Assembly: GCA_018060625.1 (NCBI GenBank) | Contig: JAGOVS010000008.1 | Location: 1-42,890, forward strand | From: Bacteriovorax sp. | GTDB taxonomy: Bacteria; Bdellovibrionota; Bacteriovoracia; Bacteriovoracales; Bacteriovoracaceae | Reading direction: 5' to 3' | Length of the DNA: 42,890 nucleotides | Part shown: positions 1,382 through 40,309 of the stretch, piece by piece | How the letters are laid out: every line of letters starts with the position of its first letter | Numbering within the stretch: position 1 is the first letter of the stretch | Notes under the pieces: model-generated | The model's database searches: none | What the model saw: only the letters and a program-made list of their open reading frames with translations | Told to the model about the DNA's origin: nothing | Position numbers and translations under genes: made by a program

Positions 1382-1399
1382 TGATGCCGGTTTAAAATT
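1381..1399 (+). repeat. Left terminal inverted repeat of the IS630 element
   Basis: The sequence GTGATGCCGGTTTAAAATT abuts the TA at 1379-1380. It matches the reverse complement of 2461-2479 at 17 of 19 positions. The transposase stop codon lies at its inner edge. Confidence 0.9.
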
Positions 1400-2412
1400 C
1401 AAGTGCCAATGGGTGTAAAATTATCTGTTATTAAAGTCTCTAGCTCGGCTCGATATTTTCTTATACCTCTAAAAAATTCCATCAGTGTTTTTCTAAAATC
1501 GTCAAACTCTTCAAAATACCTGTTGGCCGTAACTTTTTTCTTCATAAACTTCCAAAGTCGCTCAATGGGATTTAGATTTGGTGAGTATGGCGGCAAATAT
1601 AAAATTCTTATACCCAGTGCTTTGGCCAGCTCTCTGACCATCTTCGAGCGATTGTATGCTGCTCCATCAAGTACGAAATAAATTTTTTCTTCGTTCGGAT
1701 TTTTACGCCGAATTGACCTCAAAATTTCGCAAACAGATTGTTTATTAATTGTCTCAAATGATCTTGCGATTACATCTAATGAATTTATCTCAATTGCTCC
1801 ACAAACGTTTACTCTTTTTCTCCAGCCGGAGTTCGTTTTTACTTCAAAGTTTTCTCCTGTTTTGATCCACCCATAGGTAATGGTTGGCGCAAACTCAGGG
1901 TGAGTAGAATCCCCAAAGTATACTAGTCCATGAGACTTAATTCCATTGTACTGACGCAAAAACTTCTCTTGCTCACTACGCTTTGCCTTACCTGGTACAG
2001 GTGTTGCCTTCTTAAAAGAGAAACCTAGACGGTGAAGAAGCTCAGTAACTCCTCCTCGTGAATATTCAATTCCAAATTTCTTTTTAATGTGAGCAACGAC
2101 TGACTTTGTAGAGGGAAATATTTTTAACTTTAGATCGGCAGAAAGAATTTTTTGCTCTCTTGGTGATAAAAAAGCAGATCTTCCACCATAGAAATCATTG
2201 ATTAACTCTTCAATGCCTCCATTTTTATAACGCTTACGGTAGTTGGCAATTGTTCCTTCATCAAGGAATAAAAACGTCGCAATGTCTTTATAGGTTTTTT
2301 CGTCATCAAGTAGAAGTATGACTCGGATTCGATCCGCGTACTTGCGACTACGCTCAAGCCTGAGTTCCTCAAGAAGTTCTGTACGATCAGATGGTGATAG
2401 AAATTTTCCCAT
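1399..2412 (-). CDS. IS630-family transposase
   Basis: This 337-residue DDE transposase mobilises the surrounding element by cut-and-paste into TA. The N-terminal third holds a helix-turn-helix (TYKDIATFLFLDEGTIANY, about residues 41-59) and a second winged-helix region, as usual for IS630 proteins. The catalytic domain shows Asp in VYFGDSTHPEF, Asp in FVLDGAAYN and Glu in LPPYSPNLNPIERLWKF, with normal spacing. The length agrees with full-size family members. No frameshift or internal stop is seen, so it is probably functional. It runs opposite to the interrupted host gene. Confidence 0.95.
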   Translation of the reverse strand: MGKFLSPSDRTELLEELRLERSRKYADRIRVILLLDDEKTYKDIATFLFLDEGTIANYRKRYKNGGIEELINDFYGGRSAFLSPREQKILSADLKLKIFPSTKSVVAHIKKKFGIEYSRGGVTELLHRLGFSFKKATPVPGKAKRSEQEKFLRQYNGIKSHGLVYFGDSTHPEFAPTITYGWIKTGENFEVKTNSGWRKRVNVCGAIEINSLDVIARSFETINKQSVCEILRSIRRKNPNEEKIYFVLDGAAYNRSKMVRELAKALGIRILYLPPYSPNLNPIERLWKFMKKKVTANRYFEEFDDFRKTLMEFFRGIRKYRAELETLITDNFTPIGT

Positions 2413-28695: not shown

Positions 28696-30048
28696 ATGAA
28701 AGAGTCAGTCTCAGCAGTTTTTGTAACTAAATCTTCAGTGTTTTTTATTAAACGCCAAAACTATTTACCAGTTTTTCCTGGGTATTATGCAACACCTGGT
28801 GGAAAGGTAGATAAGACAGATGGGGAAGAGAAGCTCTCTGAAGATCTCTGGCCAACAACTATTCGGCCTCAAATTCTTCATGCGCTTATCAGAGAAGTGA
28901 GAGAAGAGTTAAATTATGATTTATTAGAAGGAATTAAAAAAGGAGAAGTTCTCTCCATTGATGATATCGGTGTGGCGATCACTCCAGAATTTAATCCTTA
29001 TCGATTTAAAAATTATTATTTTAAGATTACCCTAACTCATGAAATTGATTTTGATATCGATGTTAATGAAGCGGAGTTTGGAGAGTGGAATTTACCGGTT
29101 AATCTTCACAATAAATACAAGGAAGGACATGTCCTTGCTGTTCCTCCGGCCATTACTCTTCTTAAAACTTTTAGTGAAAATTTAGGACATCACTCCCCAA
29201 TTAATATGAGCTTACCTCATGACCCGGAAATGGAAGTCCCGATGATTGAATCCATTCATGGAGTACGTCAGTTTTTGCCTCTTTCGAATACATTTCCCCC
29301 GGCCAACCGAACCAATGCTTTTATCATTGGCGATGGCCTGGATGAATCATCTCCTAAGTACCTTGTCGATCCTTCTCCAAAAGATGAGGTCGAATTAAAT
29401 AAATTTCTAAAATCAGTTAATAAGATTGGTTTTGAGGCCATTTTTCTTACTCATCAGCATCCAGATCATTATCAGTATTCCGCTGAAATTGCTCGCCAGT
29501 ATAAAGTCGGAATAGAGCTATCAGAGTACACTCTAAAAAATATTTTAGAGCGAAATGGAAAAGATTATTTTGAGGGCATCAGCTTAACGATAAGAAAAGA
29601 AGGTGATGTCATAACGAAGAGTTTAGGTAAGAAAGTTTCAGTTTACGAAGTGCCAGGTCACGATGAAGGTCAATTGGCGCTTGCTCCCGAAGGATTGAAT
29701 TGGTTTTTAGTAGGGGATCTTATTCAGACTATCGGGACAGTTGTGATTCAGGCCCCTGAAGGGGATATGAAAAAATATTTTGCTACTCTCGAGCGAGTGA
29801 TCGCTTTGAATCCTAAAAATATTATTCCAAGCCATGGGATTATTATTGGGGGGATTCATAAATTGCAAGAGACTCTCAAGCACCGAATAATGCGAGAAGA
29901 GCAGATTTTAGCGATGGTGAAAGAGGGAAAAGGTTTGCATGAGATCGTGTCAATTATTTATGCCGGACTTGCTGAGAGCTTGATTCCTTATGCCGAGAGG
30001 ACTGTTGAAGCGCATTTAAAGAAATTGAAAGAGGAATGCAGGATTTAA
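28696..30048 (+). CDS. Nudix hydrolase fused to LACTB2-like metallo-beta-lactamase-fold domain
   Basis: The 450-residue cytoplasmic protein has an N-terminal Nudix domain (about 1-165): [10 protein letters not shown] followed, after an insertion of about 20 residues, by [12 protein letters not shown], the helix with the metal-binding glutamates. The C-terminal part (190-450) is a metallo-beta-lactamase-fold hydrolase: THQHPDHY (metal motif HxHxDH), [17 protein letters not shown] and PSHGIIIGG. It ends with a winged-helix-like tail ([16 protein letters not shown]) as in LACTB2-type endoribonucleases. A coupled role in nucleotide and RNA clean-up or in CoA-ester hydrolysis is possible; the substrate is unknown. 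It lies 15 bases after the subtilase gene. Confidence 0.85.
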
Positions 30049-30400
30049 TTATTAATTTTTATTTTAGGAAGTAAGTTTTCTACATTCAAAATAAGAGCAG
30101 GCACTTCATTTTGAACAACTTTCAAAATTTGACTTGCACTTGCGCTTTCATATTGATGAATTAAAACATCTCTAAGTCCAGCAATTTTTTTCCATGGAAC
30201 GTTTGGGTTATCATCCCTGAATTTTGTCGGAATTCTTTTAGCAGCTTCGCCAATTATCATTAACTGATGTTGTACGGCAAATAAGGTTTTCTGTCATTTT
30301 CAAATTGATTGAGGGTCATTCTATCAACAAATTGCAAAATATTTTTAGCGGCCATTAAAATATCAAAAAGGGATGTTTGTGGATCACGCGGCTTCGTCAT
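30045..30400 (-). pseudogene. hepT: HepT-family toxin (type VII TA), frameshifted
   Basis: Two overlapping frames together make one HepT/DUF86 protein. The first part (MTKPRDPQTSLFDILMAAKN ... FENDRK) runs out of frame at an A4 run (plus strand TTTT, 30288-30291) and stops soon after. One extra A would restore the frame, giving [20 protein letters not shown] and then the active-site motif [10 protein letters not shown] (Rx4H). HepT is an HEPN RNase toxin normally neutralised by MntA. The loss of one base removes the RNase motif from the product, so the toxin is probably dead. A sequencing error or slippage at the A-run is the alternative. The start overlaps mntA by 17 bases. Confidence 0.82.
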
Positions 30401-30710
30401 AAATGACCTTGAAATTTTCGAGAATTTCTTTTTTGCGATATGGGTTTTTACTTTTCTCAATAGACTCTTTATTTACAATATCAACTTTTCGCTGATACAA
30501 ATTTTCTAGTTCTTCTTTCATTTTAATCATGTCAAATAAGCTTATATTATTGCCATTAATAAAAGAAACGAGAATATCAATATCACTTTCAATTGGATTA
30601 AAGTCGTCTCTTAAAATTGATCCAAAGAGTGCAAACTCTTTTATTTTCCATTTAAGGCAAAAATCTCTAACTTTATGAAGTGAAATTTCTATTGGCAAAT
30701 TTTGATTCAT
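30384..30710 (-). CDS. mntA: MntA-type minimal nucleotidyltransferase antitoxin
   Basis: The 108-residue protein is a minimal nucleotidyltransferase. The motif ALFGSILRDDFNPIESDIDILVSF contains the GSxxR loop and the paired acidic residues (SDIDI) that bind metal and ATP. In type VII toxin-antitoxin systems this enzyme adds AMP units to HepT and so silences it. I chose the ATG at 30710, preceded by GAGAGGGG, over an upstream in-frame ATG without a ribosome site. Its partner gene follows with a 17-base overlap but is frameshifted, which leaves this antitoxin as an orphan. GGCC is scarce in the pair, unlike in the housekeeping genes. Confidence 0.9.
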   Translation of the reverse strand: MNQNLPIEISLHKVRDFCLKWKIKEFALFGSILRDDFNPIESDIDILVSFINGNNISLFDMIKMKEELENLYQRKVDIVNKESIEKSKNPYRKKEILENFKVIYDEAA

Positions 30711-30994
30711 AAAACGGCCCCTCTCTTTTTTAACTGACCAAAAGTAGTATATCACATGAGATGAAAAAAATAAGAAGTGCTTCAGGTATTTATTTGATCA
30801 CATTTATTTATGAATAAAAGTTTTCAAAATTTTGGAGTTGATCTGCATGAATTTAATTTGTTTTTTCTCTTTTTGCGGTGAGGTTAAAGTTATTAGAAGT
30901 GTGAGTTTTTGTCATTTTTTAACTTAAAAGACAGTAAAAACATATAGATACGAATTTAATCGGTATTAGCTCTAACTTATGTTTCGAAAAAATG

Positions 30995-35230: not shown

Positions 35231-37321
35231 TTAGCTTCTTGGAGGATTTTTACCTATGACACCTAAGATATAATTAGGAATATCAGTGAGAGTAGTAGGG
35301 TCATAACCAGTAGCGAAATAGATTTTTTTAAACCCTTGTTTGAATAAAATATCTGCAACGTCCTGACCCATTATATTGTTGGCCAAGTTAACATCAATAT
35401 AGATCTCAGTATCAATATTGACTTTCATGATCTGCTCTTGAAATGCACTTAGAGAGTCACAAGCTAAAAATTTTATGTTATCTTTTTTAGCTGCCCACTC
35501 CCAAGTCATGCGAACTAGGGCATCATCATCGATAAGGCATCTAGAATAAAAACTATCAATACTTATTTCATTTATTTCTATGGGTACAATTCCAAGCATT
35601 CCTTTAGGAATTATTTTTAGCTTTAAGTCTTCTGAGTGCTTTCTAAGATTTACTTCTTCATACCGACTTGTCACAAGAATAGATTTTTTTTGCAATTGAT
35701 ATTTTTCAACAATATCCAAACCAGTCATCGATTGATTACTCAACTCATAGTCAAAAAGAAAAATCATTCGTTCTATTAATTCGCGATTCTGTAAACTAAA
35801 CCAATTTTCAAACTCTAATGCTGAGGAAAACATTGCAATCTCAATTTTATTATTAACTTGTCCAAATCGCCCTTGCCATGCCTGGTGTATCGTTATGTCA
35901 TCATCTACAACCACAATGAATTGCTTTTCATCAACTATAATTTTTTCTACGAACCATTCTGGTGTTTTCGACCTTGGGAAAATAATGGAAATAGTTGTCC
36001 CCACGCCCTCTTCGCTCTCGATAATCATTTCCCCATGGGCATTTGTAATGACGTTTTTAGCATGTAAAAGACCAATCCCTGATCCGCTATCACTTGATTT
36101 TTCTTTGCCATAAGAAAATGTGGTTTGACCAAGTCTATCGATTATAGTTGGAGGTATTCCTTTTCCATCATCCTTGATCATGATTTTGATTTTATTTTCT
36201 GTTGATCTAACAGATACTTTAACTTTAACACTATCAAGCTTTGAAGCTTCAACTGAATTATTAATTAAATTAGAAATGACTCGCTTTAAATCAGCGGGAT
36301 TAATTGTCGCAAAAGCACCATAAGAATTAAAAAAATCTGTTTCAATTTTTATGCGAGCACGATCTCTGAATTGAACGCGTTTTTCAGAAACGATCGAATC
36401 TAGTAAAGCAGGTACAAGCTCAACTATTTCATCCATCTCAATAATGCCATGTTGTATTTCTCTCTTTTTTGACTGTGAAAGTAATGTGTTTGCAATATCA
36501 TTAATTCTGCTAACTGAATTTCGTATAAGTATACGTTTATCATCTGCAATATTCCCTAAATCGCTAACGACCATATTAAGCGCAGCGAGAGGACTTCGAA
36601 TGTCATGAGAAACCTGCTTTGCAATATCAGATGTTTTCTTAGTGATAATCATTTCAATTTCTTTTTCTTTGAACTCATTGAGTTTTGTTTTCAAAGACCT
36701 CAGTGCATTAATTACAGGTGTTACTTCTGGAAAGCTTGGAAAATAAGGAATCCCATCTGTTGCTGCTAATTCAGAAAGTTGGATACTAAATTCCTTAAGA
36801 GATTTTCTAGTAAGAAGGTATGTTGATATCGAAACAGAAAATACTAAAAATGAAACGAGAAGTAATGAAACAAACAGAGCCGTTTCTAATATTTTATTAC
36901 TACTCAGTTTTAAATCTTGCCAAATATATAAAAGCCTTAATTTCTTACCTGAAACATCTACGAAAATATAGTTCTTATGAATAGGGCATTCTTCTAATTT
37001 TAATGTGGATAATATAAGTTTGTTATCATCACAGATTAAAAGCGTTACCAATCCCAACGGTTTTGCTTTTTCAATAATAAATCCGCGTGCATTTACTAAG
37101 TCACCAAATCGAGCATGAGTTTCAAAAATATTTGTTAGAATGCTTTCATTCGCAATTCGCTGTTCTTCATTTTTATGCATCTCTTCTTTTGCAAGATAAT
37201 TCCAAGTTAGGACATAGCCAGGAATTGCAAAAAATATCCACAATACAATTCCCAATATGATGCTTTTCCTAAAAAGAGGACTAGCGAATATTGACTTTAT
37301 AGTAGTTAACTGTTTCATCAA
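35231..37321 (-). CDS. Membrane hybrid histidine kinase with two receiver domains
   Basis: The 696-residue inner-membrane sensor has TM1 (about 20-42), a periplasmic domain (43-146), TM2 (147-170), a linker, and a HisKA domain with His239 in QVSHDIRSPLAALNM. The ATPase domain shows NLINNSVEA, DDGKGIP and SGSGIGL. Then come two receiver domains: 468-580 (Asp473-475, phosphoacceptor Asp524, Lys573) and 592-696 (Asp598-600, phosphoacceptor Asp643, Lys691). No DNA-binding output is attached or adjacent. Its start lies 41 bases inside the binding-protein gene, so it is coupled to it and probably senses the state of that protein. GGCC is almost absent, unlike in the flanking genes. Confidence 0.93.
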   Translation of the reverse strand: MMKQLTTIKSIFASPLFRKSIILGIVLWIFFAIPGYVLTWNYLAKEEMHKNEEQRIANESILTNIFETHARFGDLVNARGFIIEKAKPLGLVTLLICDDNKLILSTLKLEECPIHKNYIFVDVSGKKLRLLYIWQDLKLSSNKILETALFVSLLLVSFLVFSVSISTYLLTRKSLKEFSIQLSELAATDGIPYFPSFPEVTPVINALRSLKTKLNEFKEKEIEMIITKKTSDIAKQVSHDIRSPLAALNMVVSDLGNIADDKRILIRNSVSRINDIANTLLSQSKKREIQHGIIEMDEIVELVPALLDSIVSEKRVQFRDRARIKIETDFFNSYGAFATINPADLKRVISNLINNSVEASKLDSVKVKVSVRSTENKIKIMIKDDGKGIPPTIIDRLGQTTFSYGKEKSSDSGSGIGLLHAKNVITNAHGEMIIESEEGVGTTISIIFPRSKTPEWFVEKIIVDEKQFIVVVDDDITIHQAWQGRFGQVNNKIEIAMFSSALEFENWFSLQNRELIERMIFLFDYELSNQSMTGLDIVEKYQLQKKSILVTSRYEEVNLRKHSEDLKLKIIPKGMLGIVPIEINEISIDSFYSRCLIDDDALVRMTWEWAAKKDNIKFLACDSLSAFQEQIMKVNIDTEIYIDVNLANNIMGQDVADILFKQGFKKIYFATGYDPTTLTDIPNYILGVIGKNPPRS

Positions 37322-38753
37322 GTTCTCTTATGTTTTTAAAGTCAAGATTCTTGTGACCGACAGACAAGGTAGAGAAGTGAAAAAGAGGCAAGTAATTTCC
37401 TTTTTCATATGACTTTCTTAAAAGATCCTTAAAACCAAGCACTTCTTTTTCAATGTTAGAAAGATGAGAAGCTTTTTGAAAGTTACTTATATCCTCTTTA
37501 TCTAAATGTATAAACGAATTCGTTGTAATGATGCCAATCCATGTAGAAGGCTCAGGATCTGCTACTCCAAAGTCGAATAAAACAAAATCATACTTATTAT
37601 CTTCATAAAATAATTTCACAAAATCTGACTTGATTTTGATGTCCCAATTCACAATAACATCTAATTCTTTAAATATTGGTGTTAGTAATTTCTTTTGCTC
37701 AATGGATGATTCCGAATTTGTAATCAAAATTTTTATTTGGGCAGGAAGTTTACCTTGGTTTTTCAAAGCTGGCAACTGATCAAATAAAGGATAACCTAAA
37801 GGTTGCAGACTTGTAGCTTTTTTTACGTTCAGAGGCAATCCTTCAATTTTTTTTGAATGCATTTTCTCACTTAAAGCAAACAAGACTCTTCTTGAAGTCT
37901 CTAGCGTCTTAGTGTTATTTGGTTTCAAAAGAGATACTCGATCATGACCTCTCGTCCAAAGAGGTAATTTATTCTTAAGGATTAATTGTGCCGTTTCTTC
38001 GCTTAAAAACGTATTGACTTGAACAATGTTTTCCCATGTATTTTCATTTAAAAATGTACTCAGTTGAAAATCTTTTGTAACAGGCTTAATTCGAATTATT
38101 GACGGTGCTAAATTATTAGCTTTAGGGTAATGAGCATTAACTTTCAACTCAAGACCACCAGGATCAACTTTCGAAATAAAATATGGTCCTATTGAAATGT
38201 TGTTTGATTTCAATTCAAGTGTTTTAGGATTAACCTCATCTGGATGTATTACGGCCATTGGTTGGCCACCCATTCTTTGAAAAAATGACTCAGATATTTT
38301 ATGATCTTTTGTTTTTAAGATGATTATTTCATCATTTGGAGAACTAATTGAGTTAAGATCCACTAATGCTGCTATCGCTAGACCATATTGCGTTTTAAGT
38401 CTATACGCTCTTTGTATATTCCAAATTAAATGAGCAGCAGTTAATTTTTCACCGTTTGACCACTTTCTGCTTGTGTTAACTAAGAATTTATAAAATCCAT
38501 TTTTTTCGTCAAAACTCCATTCCCTAATGAGGTTTGCTTTAGCTTTTCTAGAATCGTCATAATCAAACCAAGTGTCGGATAGGCAAAGAGCAAGGTCGTA
38601 GTCTGCCATTGATTTTATGGCTAATGGATCAACAGGTAATTGATAAGAAAGGCGTACTCGCAAATCTTTTTCCATGGGCTCCCTTGCCGAAATAGCTACA
38701 ACAATGATCATTGTCAGAATTGTAAAAATAATTTTTTTAATTTTCAATTTCAC
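37281..38753 (-). CDS. Periplasmic family 5 solute-binding protein (oligopeptide-type)
   Basis: The 490-residue protein starts with a lysine-rich signal peptide (about 1-23, ending ISA). The mature part follows the SBP_bac_5/OppA plan: FKFLVN-type strand before SRKWSNGEKLTAAHLIWNIQRAY, then SIGPYFISKVDPGGLELKVN, and late YDFVLFDFGVADPEPSTW. Such proteins bind peptides or other ligands for ABC import, yet no permease or ATPase gene is nearby. The next gene is a hybrid kinase, so it likely acts as a sensor receptor. The start is a GTG that overlaps the small-peptide gene by 17 bases. Some residues of a classical OppA may be missing; this cannot be judged by eye. Confidence 0.88.
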   Translation of the reverse strand: MKLKIKKIIFTILTMIIVVAISAREPMEKDLRVRLSYQLPVDPLAIKSMADYDLALCLSDTWFDYDDSRKAKANLIREWSFDEKNGFYKFLVNTSRKWSNGEKLTAAHLIWNIQRAYRLKTQYGLAIAALVDLNSISSPNDEIIILKTKDHKISESFFQRMGGQPMAVIHPDEVNPKTLELKSNNISIGPYFISKVDPGGLELKVNAHYPKANNLAPSIIRIKPVTKDFQLSTFLNENTWENIVQVNTFLSEETAQLILKNKLPLWTRGHDRVSLLKPNNTKTLETSRRVLFALSEKMHSKKIEGLPLNVKKATSLQPLGYPLFDQLPALKNQGKLPAQIKILITNSESSIEQKKLLTPIFKELDVIVNWDIKIKSDFVKLFYEDNKYDFVLFDFGVADPEPSTWIGIITTNSFIHLDKEDISNFQKASHLSNIEKEVLGFKDLLRKSYEKGNYLPLFHFSTLSVGHKNLDFKNIRELDETVNYYKVNIR

Positions 38754-39018
38754 TCAACAAAGTTACAATTCTTTCACGCATTTCTTCTTTTTGGTCTGCA
38801 CTAATGTCTGATAAGTGAATTCTTATATCATCAATAGCCTGTATTGCTTCTTCATTTGTCATTTTATTAGCGAAGCATGTTGCTCCACCATTGCCTATTT
38901 TACTGATTGCTATATGTGAAGTCTTTACTCTTAATGAGTCTATATTTGTATCGGCCATAATTGTTCTAGACAAAAGCGTTGAAAATAAGATTGTAACTAC
39001 ACTAATTATTTGTTTCAT
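38737..39018 (-). CDS. Small exported peptide, candidate substrate of the adjacent YcaO enzyme
   Basis: The 93-residue product has a hydrophobic N-terminus (KQIISVVTILFSTLL) with a likely signal-peptidase site after residue 22 (TIMA-D). The rest has a short Gly-rich segment GNGGATCFANK with the only Cys, then an acidic amphipathic helical tail (EEAIQAIDDIRIHLSD, EEMRERIVTLLSEIEN). No family is recognised. It lies seven bases after the YcaO stop; its ribosome site (TAGGAAAA) overlaps that stop, and its end overlaps the binding-protein gene. Position makes it a candidate modified-peptide precursor or signal, but it could equally be a small accessory protein. No modification is visible from sequence. 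Confidence 0.7.
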   Translation of the reverse strand: MKQIISVVTILFSTLLSRTIMADTNIDSLRVKTSHIAISKIGNGGATCFANKMTNEEAIQAIDDIRIHLSDISADQKEEMRERIVTLLSEIEN

Positions 39019-39025
39019 TTTTTTC

Positions 39026-39979
39026 CTAAGGTATTGGGTGTGGAATAACCTCGTTATTATTATATTGTTCAGTCATATCACGCCCAGTTTTTAGGCGCAA
39101 TAGGTCAATGTCGTCTTTGCAAGGAAACCCCATTTTTAATGTAAAAACTTCAGAGAGCTGAACACCTGAGATACATATGGGCCCCGTTTTACTGTTAAAA
39201 TGATTCATCACTTTGGGGCTAAGTAATTTTGGAACTTCGATACTCAAATCAGAAAAATCATTTAATATCCATTCGGGGATGACATTTTCATGCAACCAAT
39301 ACGTTCTGTGATTTTTTAAACTACTAAGCCCTTTCTCATGAAGGTCTGATAAAAGTTCACTTGAATTTTCCCCTTGGTTTCCTAAAAAATAATTAATGAT
39401 GGCCTCAGAGAACGCTTTAAAAAGATCGAATTGATTATTTGAAAGTCCAAGAGCAAATCCGCCAGTCTCTTCGTTTACCAAGAAACACGCAACAGTTTTT
39501 TGATGCCCTAGAAAAGTGATTCGAAAAAGTGTTTTAATTTTTAAATCAGATAGCTCTTTTATTACTAACTCAATTTTTGAATCTTCGTTAACAATTTTTA
39601 AAAATGGGATCTGGGAATACCAATGGCATAAAAATGAATCTCGTTCATAAATCTCAGCAATCGCCGCTTTTTGTGCTAAAAAATGAAAACGATGACCGGC
39701 AATTCCATTTGTTGATGAAAACCCCCGAATAATTCCAATGTCAAAGAACGCTTTCCTTTCGTAAAATTCAACTACTGCCTTTATATAGGCTAATTTTTCA
39801 TTAGAATCAGCGCCTAGTCCATAATAATCAATATTCAAGTATGGAAATGAATAATGTACCATATGCAACCATTTTAGTGTCTCAAGTGGGGTTATGACTT
39901 TCTTAAATTCGGCGCCTTTTTTAATTTGAGACTCAATAAATGATCCCATAAAAACGTTGCTGATAATTTTATTAATCAC
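39026..39979 (-). CDS. YcaO-family ATP-dependent peptide-modifying enzyme
   Basis: The 317-residue protein shows the two YcaO glutamate-arginine blocks: KAVVEFYERKAFFD (68-80) and, after GFSSTNGIAGHRFHFLAQK, AAIAEIYERDSF (105-116). The segment SSTNGIAGH matches the S-N-G-x-A-x-G part of known family members. FKAFSEAIINYFLG looks like the third ATP-binding helix. The chain ends in IPHPIP, the PxPxP C-terminus typical of azoline-forming YcaO proteins. These enzymes use ATP to activate backbone amides, making azolines, thioamides or amidines in peptides. It is shorter than usual and lacks a partner (E1-like, TfuA or ocin-ThiF protein). It heads the four-gene operon. Confidence 0.88.
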   Translation of the reverse strand: MINKIISNVFMGSFIESQIKKGAEFKKVITPLETLKWLHMVHYSFPYLNIDYYGLGADSNEKLAYIKAVVEFYERKAFFDIGIIRGFSSTNGIAGHRFHFLAQKAAIAEIYERDSFLCHWYSQIPFLKIVNEDSKIELVIKELSDLKIKTLFRITFLGHQKTVACFLVNEETGGFALGLSNNQFDLFKAFSEAIINYFLGNQGENSSELLSDLHEKGLSSLKNHRTYWLHENVIPEWILNDFSDLSIEVPKLLSPKVMNHFNSKTGPICISGVQLSEVFTLKMGFPCKDDIDLLRLKTGRDMTEQYNNNEVIPHPIP

Positions 39980-40309
39980 TCGTTCAAACCTCTTTAGCTG
40001 GTTACCTGAGAAGATCTCTTTATAAAAGCGAAAAAATTTAAAAATCTTTTTTTATTATATTCTCTTACGATTTTAATTCAATCTTTATATCAAAAAATGC
40101 TTCAGCTCCTAATTAACAAACACAATTATAAAAACAAACAGCTTTTTTAGAAAGCTAGTTTGATGCTTTATGATTTTTTAGTTACTTGTCGTCGTGATGT
40201 CCGTCCAATTTTTTTACACTTTATTTCCCACCATGTAATTATTGGAAATTCTCAGCAATCGCTCTCAAATGTCTGCATAATGTAAAAAAAGCAATTTAGG
40301 GAGGCACTG
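39980..40309. promoter_or_regulatory. AT-rich divergent intergenic region
   Basis: These 330 bases separate the YcaO operon from an exported-protein gene on the other strand. The region is very AT-rich with many A and T runs, and it must hold the promoters of both units. A perfect 6-bp stem (AGCTTT/AAAGCT, 40140-40156) stands near the middle. GGGAGG before 40310 is the ribosome site of the plus-strand gene. I see no small gene or clear operator. Confidence 0.4.

Follow-up and report, generated by a model that had tools for sequence, protein, structure and literature searches.

A YcaO, binding-protein and hybrid-kinase operon of Bacteriovorax as a probable member of a Bdellovibrionota-wide modified-peptide self-signalling cassette

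What brings a YcaO enzyme, a small protein with a signal peptide, a solute-binding protein (SBP) and a hybrid kinase together in a single operon? The question is raised by a locus in the window, the whole stretch of 42,890 nucleotides of a Bacteriovorax sp. contig (JAGOVS010000008.1) that was analysed. A sequence-only reading had proposed that the small product is modified, exported, captured by the SBP and reported by the kinase. The four minus-strand ORFs, their arrangement as one operon and the gap and overlaps between them, all taken from that reading, were confirmed. The features used below are as follows.

40054..40081, minus strand: weak candidate for a sigma-70-type promoter (TTGAAT-16-TATAAT) ahead of ycaO; sites of this kind are no commoner than in shuffles
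39026-39979, minus strand: YcaO ORF, 317 aa, GTG start, C-terminus IPHPIP
39029..39043, minus strand: C-terminal PHPIP of YcaO, His314 conserved in 75 of the 82 relatives having that column
38737-39018, minus strand: small ORF, 93 aa, 7-base gap after YcaO, AGGA Shine-Dalgarno
38863..38898, minus strand: predicted core IGNGGATCFANK, residues 41-52 of the small protein, inferred by comparison with IGDGGATCYSPA of locus L097 and GEGSGGSSTCGVV of locus L106
37281-38753, minus strand: SBP ORF, 490 aa, 17-base overlap with the small ORF
35231-37321, minus strand: kinase ORF, 696 aa from TTG, 41-base overlap with the SBP ORF

For the kinase, an in-frame ATG at 37318 (overlap of 38 bases) is a likelier start than the TTG. 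Two other features of the window were noted by eye. At 30045-30755 (minus strand), a nucleotidyltransferase-like ORF precedes a pair of short ORFs, each in its own frame, that look like one broken HEPN/DUF86-type partner, and at 1399-2412 (minus strand) an IS630-like transposase ORF adjoins chemotaxis-type genes with Hpt/CheA features.

Recurrence of the gene set in Bdellovibrionota

When the genome collection was scanned with the window YcaO as a single protein, no relatives came up. The window YcaO alone recovered weak relatives in 10 of 57 genomes, including its own, and several of these carried the same four parts. With a 10-row YcaO profile, members were found in 42 of the 129 genomes of the order, and at E ≤1e-8 the profile matched in 88 of the 369 genomes of the phylum; the named records with family members are Bdellovibrionales, Bacteriovoracaceae and Bdellovibrionaceae assemblies. 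Neither tblastn against plasmids nor a scan of viral contigs detected relatives.

The 90 loci analysed, window included, were picked from the better-scoring matches, and the fractions given here describe this set rather than the whole phylum. An SBP was counted as a partner when it lay no more than three genes from YcaO on the same strand, as it did in 72 loci; YcaO, SBP and kinase shared a strand in 66 of the 90, a same-strand kinase being missing in 6 of the 72. The neighbourhood search that had been suggested as a check thus found this association beyond chance, in a family defined by a YcaO search inside one phylum and with related loci counted as independent. The commonest gene order was SBP-YcaO-kinase (30 loci), followed by regulator-SBP-YcaO-kinase (15) and YcaO-SBP-kinase-regulator (14). 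The order of the window, YcaO-SBP-kinase, was found in 6 loci, and one other order in a single locus.

The L097 cassette comes from another family of the phylum than the window genome, and its identity to the window is 53% for YcaO, 54% for the SBP, 46% for the kinase (partial) and 31% for the precursor. Because the closest cassettes were found outside the window's own genus, these sequence comparisons suggest that the cassette has moved horizontally.

Seventeen YcaO loci were without an SBP, some of which instead encode SagB-type dehydrogenases, glycosyltransferases or B12 radical SAM enzymes. In L073, L076, L079, L083, L084 and L085, which are without an SBP, family YcaOs adjoin B12-binding radical SAM genes; these are possibly other RiPP clusters. 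In L087, L088 and L089, two SBP-like ORFs precede the YcaO and the kinase is on the opposite strand. SagB-type dehydrogenases also occurred in L133 and next to a few other relatives. In L133 (673-7950), a precursor (..SIQPTCL), a YcaO, an acetyltransferase-like protein, an SBP, a SagB-type dehydrogenase and a long hybrid kinase are encoded in a row; this is a cassette with peptide-maturation enzymes inside it and the best biochemical entry point. The cassette is widespread in Bdellovibrio-like bacteria, its gene set is non-accidental, and it is apparently undescribed: we found no account of it in the open-access literature, in agreement with the earlier statement that no described system is known to have these genes.

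The YcaO enzyme and its small partner protein

The window YcaO scored just below the Pfam YcaO cut-off (24.1 against 25.7 bits), and its best family match was TOMM SagD (6.5e-7). Its AlphaFold2 model, made with an alignment from its own family only, reached a pLDDT of 90. The top PDB match of this model in Foldseek was E. coli YcaO with AMP (1.9e-7), and further matches were methanogen YcaO, LynD and McbD. The predicted fold secures the assignment to the YcaO superfamily. Among 90 aligned YcaO sequences, E71, G92, E109, E112 and R113 are invariant and E74 and R75 nearly so. The window residues E109, E112, R113 and E192 align with E199, E202, R203 and E290 of E. coli YcaO, which we take to be ATP/Mg-binding positions, and an ExxER motif is found at E71/E74. 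The YcaO call was therefore borne out by fold and ATP/Mg residues in spite of the weak Pfam score. Missing ATP-site residues had been named as evidence that would speak against the sequence-only reading; E71/E74/R75 and E109/E112/R113 are kept in practically all 90 relatives, and a degenerate ATP site was rejected. The C-terminal ends across the family are of the form (P/L)HPxx, and the PHPIP end of the window enzyme resembles the PxPxP terminus of YcaO enzymes that form azolines.

No E1-like/Ocin-ThiF (cyclodehydratase-C) partner was found with the one model used (TIGR03882) in the genome of the window (about 91% complete), nor among the recurrent neighbour families of the YcaO loci, and searches of the same genome detected neither a SagB dehydrogenase nor TfuA. 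The absence of the usual YcaO partner, already noted from the window, is thus a family-wide trait and not peculiar to this copy. Because searches of the genome found no E1-like partner, SagB or TfuA, a lone cyclodehydratase forming an azoline is our first choice, with an amidine or thioamide as less likely products. The same genome encodes a second YcaO (L001, G000:C235:12484-13479), a full-scoring one of 225 bits within a 754-codon open frame; its location elsewhere, on contig C235, makes the window YcaO a distinct enzyme.

The 93-aa small protein has a Sec-type signal peptide, called with a crude hydrophobicity score and not with SignalP, a Gly-rich patch with one Cys and a charged C-terminal tail. 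Its nearest homologue, in L097, keeps the patch IGxGGATC(F/Y), which reads IGNGGATCF in the middle of the window protein and IGDGGATCY in L097. In both precursors the core is internal, not C-terminal, and Cys48 of the window protein is the predicted modified residue.

Small ORFs at the other loci were called by a rule: an ATG, Shine-Dalgarno-like bases, a positive residue followed by a hydrophobic stretch at the N-terminus, a length of 40-180 aa and a stop ≤130 bases from the SBP start. Such a coupled signal-peptide ORF was found before the SBP in 57 of the 72 YcaO+SBP loci, compared with 24 of 568 control genes (4%; Fisher 8e-48), the controls being other genes of the same loci and related loci being taken as independent. 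A chance ORF was rejected on these counts. Of the 15 loci outside the rule, four lie at the end of a contig; by eye, at least 7 have a candidate that fails one criterion. Loci that keep the other three genes and lose the small one, which would have spoken against the sequence-only reading, are not the pattern, and the signal-peptide-bearing small gene was confirmed as part of the operon with the crude predictor.

The C-terminal ends of the 57 small proteins are enriched in Cys and Gly. A Cys falls within the last 15 residues in 33 of them, against 13.2 expected from shuffles (none of 1000 reached 33), and the same stretch holds 126 Gly, against 69 in shuffles. Typical ends are PSCWTEPI, NPTCWTK, QPTCWGH, QPSCIE, GGTICF, GTVCI, GASGASCG and GHGGSCE, the residue before the last Cys being mostly S, I or T. 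Gly-rich patches with one Cys, such as GGATC, PSCW and GTIC, recur across the family, with the Cys sometimes replaced by Ser: in related precursors the leader is kept while the core differs (PSCW, PTCW, PSCI, PSSI), and Ser is found at the Cys position in QPSSIGG and APSSIGMS. The small proteins reach about 170 aa in length (f12 family). The precursors of L014, L019, L070, L075, L086, L087 and L094 are without Cys, so the residue to be modified would not be the same throughout. A Gly-rich patch with Cys or Ser is as expected for a cyclodehydratase substrate, and a leader followed by a Cys/Ser/Thr core is of the TOMM type; by these features, the small protein would be the substrate.

Putative receptor proteins, regulator and mobile DNA

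The SBP matched Pfam SBP_bac_5 (PF00496) with 42 bits (8.5e-11; cut-off 32.4). It is a family-5 (OppA-type) periplasmic SBP with no transporter nearby, as had been read from the sequence. Its profile matched OppA3, MppA, OppA and PrgZ in the PDB, the peptide binders at 1e-31 to 1e-18; the pheromone receptor PrgZ was matched at 1.7e-18, with nickel binders scoring similarly. Family-5 SBPs bind nickel, heme and sugars as well as peptides, and this profile is closest to the oligopeptide binders. The kinase consists of TM1, a periplasmic domain of about 100 aa, TM2, HisKA/HATPase (HATPase 1.6e-21 in Pfam; His box SHDIRSPL) and two C-terminal receiver-like regions. For the earlier call of a hybrid kinase with two receivers, the HisKA/HATPase part stood, while both receivers fell below the Response_reg cut-off and are recognised by D/T/K residues and homologues. 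The sensor-domain model reached a pLDDT of 87 and a pTM of 0.58, and a search of the PDB gave no significant match to its fold (best E 0.76, LuxQ at rank 50).

An NtrC-type sigma-54 activator with a Fis-type HTH is encoded near 31 cassettes, about half. Of these 31, 15 have a near-consensus -24/-12 site (score ≥14 of 16) immediately before the operon; the figure is 13 of 586 among control genes (Fisher 1.8e-14) and 2 of 41 among cassettes without the regulator. A regulator combined with such a site before its own operon implies autoinduction, and the pattern has the expected look of positive autoregulation in the regulator-bearing cassettes, not in the window copy. The neighbourhood and promoter scan of the window cassette found no NtrC-type regulator, sigma-54 site or conjugation genes, and sigma-54 or conjugation control of this copy was not supported.

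About 13 cassettes (11 + 2), a minority, are beside conjugation or recombinase genes, given here as plain counts. VirB4/VirB2/TraL-type conjugation genes lie within about 7 kb of 11 cassettes and are mostly divergent from them (conjugation-type T4SS in L018, L077, L078, L094, L096, L100, L103, L113, L116, L122 and L130), and sigma-54-like sites precede leftward genes in L078 (a perfect site) and L096. A site-specific serine recombinase adjoins two further cassettes. One of these, from the window's genus (L015:11293-18001), carries its recombinase gene together with genes for VirD4-like and VirB10-like proteins immediately upstream of the cassette. In L146 and L149, a coupling or FtsK-type protein, a VirB10-like protein and a recombinase/integrase are encoded around the same T4SS.

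A proposed signalling loop and its alternatives

The operon is probably a member of a Bdellovibrionota-wide modified-peptide self-signalling cassette, judging from gene content and conservation, since such a loop best explains a small gene that is a constant, coupled and fast-evolving partner. The modification, chemistry, export, trimming, binding and signalling that we infer would proceed as follows. Three parts would make up the ribosomally made small protein, namely its Sec signal peptide, a segment for recognition and, as the core, a short Gly-rich stretch holding a single Cys (or Ser/Thr). YcaO, working without a partner, would spend ATP to activate the backbone amide before the core Cys/Ser/Thr, most likely forming a thiazoline or oxazoline in the cytoplasm, and the modified precursor would then be exported by Sec and trimmed. 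As for the exporter reported as missing, no dedicated peptide exporter recurs among the neighbour families, and the Sec-type signal peptide would explain this lack. The released peptide would be caught by the family-5 SBP, and the loaded SBP would dock onto the hybrid kinase at its periplasmic domain, altering how the kinase is phosphorylated. In cassettes with a sigma-54 activator, the targets would include their own operon (autoinduction) and, in some cases, conjugation genes nearby.

Several known systems resemble parts of this loop. The autoinducing two-component systems nisin NisRK and staphylococcal AgrBDCA of Gram-positives also rely on a ribosomal peptide that is modified, exported and sensed by a histidine kinase inducing its own operon, as proposed here; the cassette has a YcaO in place of lanthionine or thiolactone enzymes, a Sec signal peptide in place of dedicated export, Gram-negative hosts and an SBP as presumed first receptor. 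LuxP-LuxQ, ChvE-VirA and TorT-TorS couple a periplasmic binding protein to a membrane kinase, as is proposed here, but with other SBP families, non-peptide ligands and no biosynthetic enzyme in the operon. The TOMM/azol(in)e clusters (SagBCD, McbBCD, LynD) share the YcaO fold and ATP residues, a PxPxP-like end, a Cys/Ser/Thr core and, in a few relatives, SagB. The window cassette is without their E1-like C protein or dehydrogenase, its leader is a Sec-type signal peptide, and SBP and kinase are constant partners. A SagB-type dehydrogenase is needed only for azoles. The enterococcal pheromone is unmodified and is imported to a cytoplasmic regulator. The pheromone-responsive plasmids (PrgZ/pCF10; reviewed in PMC7117660) share the family-5 OppA-type protein, here the presumed pheromone receptor, and the link to conjugation, the latter with a minority of cassettes, whereas the cassette has a kinase and no permease. 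The ItfB-type YcaO of Bacteroidales similarly acts near the precursor C-terminal end, but its partners are radical SAM enzymes and a transporter containing a peptidase, with no SBP or kinase (PMC10352776). As the TOMM-defining partner was not found and the sensor fold was unmatched, the cassette is not assigned to the autoinducing RiPP systems or to the SBP-coupled receptors.

Antibiotic RiPPs such as nisin double as autoinducers, and the cassette could be a RiPP antibiotic (bacteriocin) cluster, with SBP and kinase sensing the product or damage for self-protection or induction and the peptide serving primarily as a weapon against competitors or prey. The SagB dehydrogenase and acetyltransferase-like gene of L133 and the strong core variation between related precursors fit this, as does the fact that antibiotic RiPPs are the best-known setting of YcaO enzymes (e.g. 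PMC4603692). We consider it unlikely: SBP and kinase recur among the neighbour families, whereas exporter, immunity protein and peptidase transporter do not, and a Sec signal peptide with an SBP without permease points to sensing. There is also only a slim chance that the small protein stays unmodified and serves in the periplasm as an accessory or adaptor to an SBP/kinase receptor for outside peptides (nutrient or prey debris), the YcaO modifying the SBP, the kinase or another target. Free-standing E. coli YcaO does modify a folded protein, uL16 (PMC13063428), some small proteins are without Cys, and the larger ones of about 170 aa could be structural subunits. The Cys/Gly enrichment at the C-terminal end and the Cys-to-Ser exchanges at one position argue against an adaptor, as does a precursor that diverges fastest of the four (window against L097: 53, 54, 46 and 31%) and yet keeps its core patch.

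The same loop might also run on a backbone amidine, macroamidine or thioamide instead of an azoline, a sub-question of the self-signalling reading whose confidence overlaps with it. ItfB makes a C-terminal amidine (PMC10352776), thioamidation by E. coli YcaO needs no TfuA, and the own genome yielded neither an E1-like partner nor a dehydrogenase. This chemistry is conceivable but doubtful, given the C-terminal PHPIP with TOMM SagD as best family match, the SagB-type dehydrogenases beside some relatives, the Cys/Ser at the core position and the absence of TfuA from the own genome.

Modified-peptide quorum sensing is known from Gram-positives. As far as the open-access literature shows, there is no described case of a YcaO product serving as signal, or of Gram-negative bacteria reading a pheromone with an oligopeptide-binding protein plus a kinase. 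Tentatively, and at somewhat less than even confidence, the self-signalling reading extends to a phylum-wide class of Gram-negative pheromones, with a lone YcaO, Sec-exported precursors, reading by SBP and hybrid kinase, sigma-54 autoinduction, many specificities and, on integrative conjugative elements, control of DNA transfer among Bdellovibrio-like bacteria. If true, Bdellovibrio-like bacteria would communicate through a system whose specificities, dozens in number, can be read from the genes, YcaO enzymes would gain a novel function along with a partner-free substrate set, and pheromone sensing would be joined to conjugative elements by a testable link.
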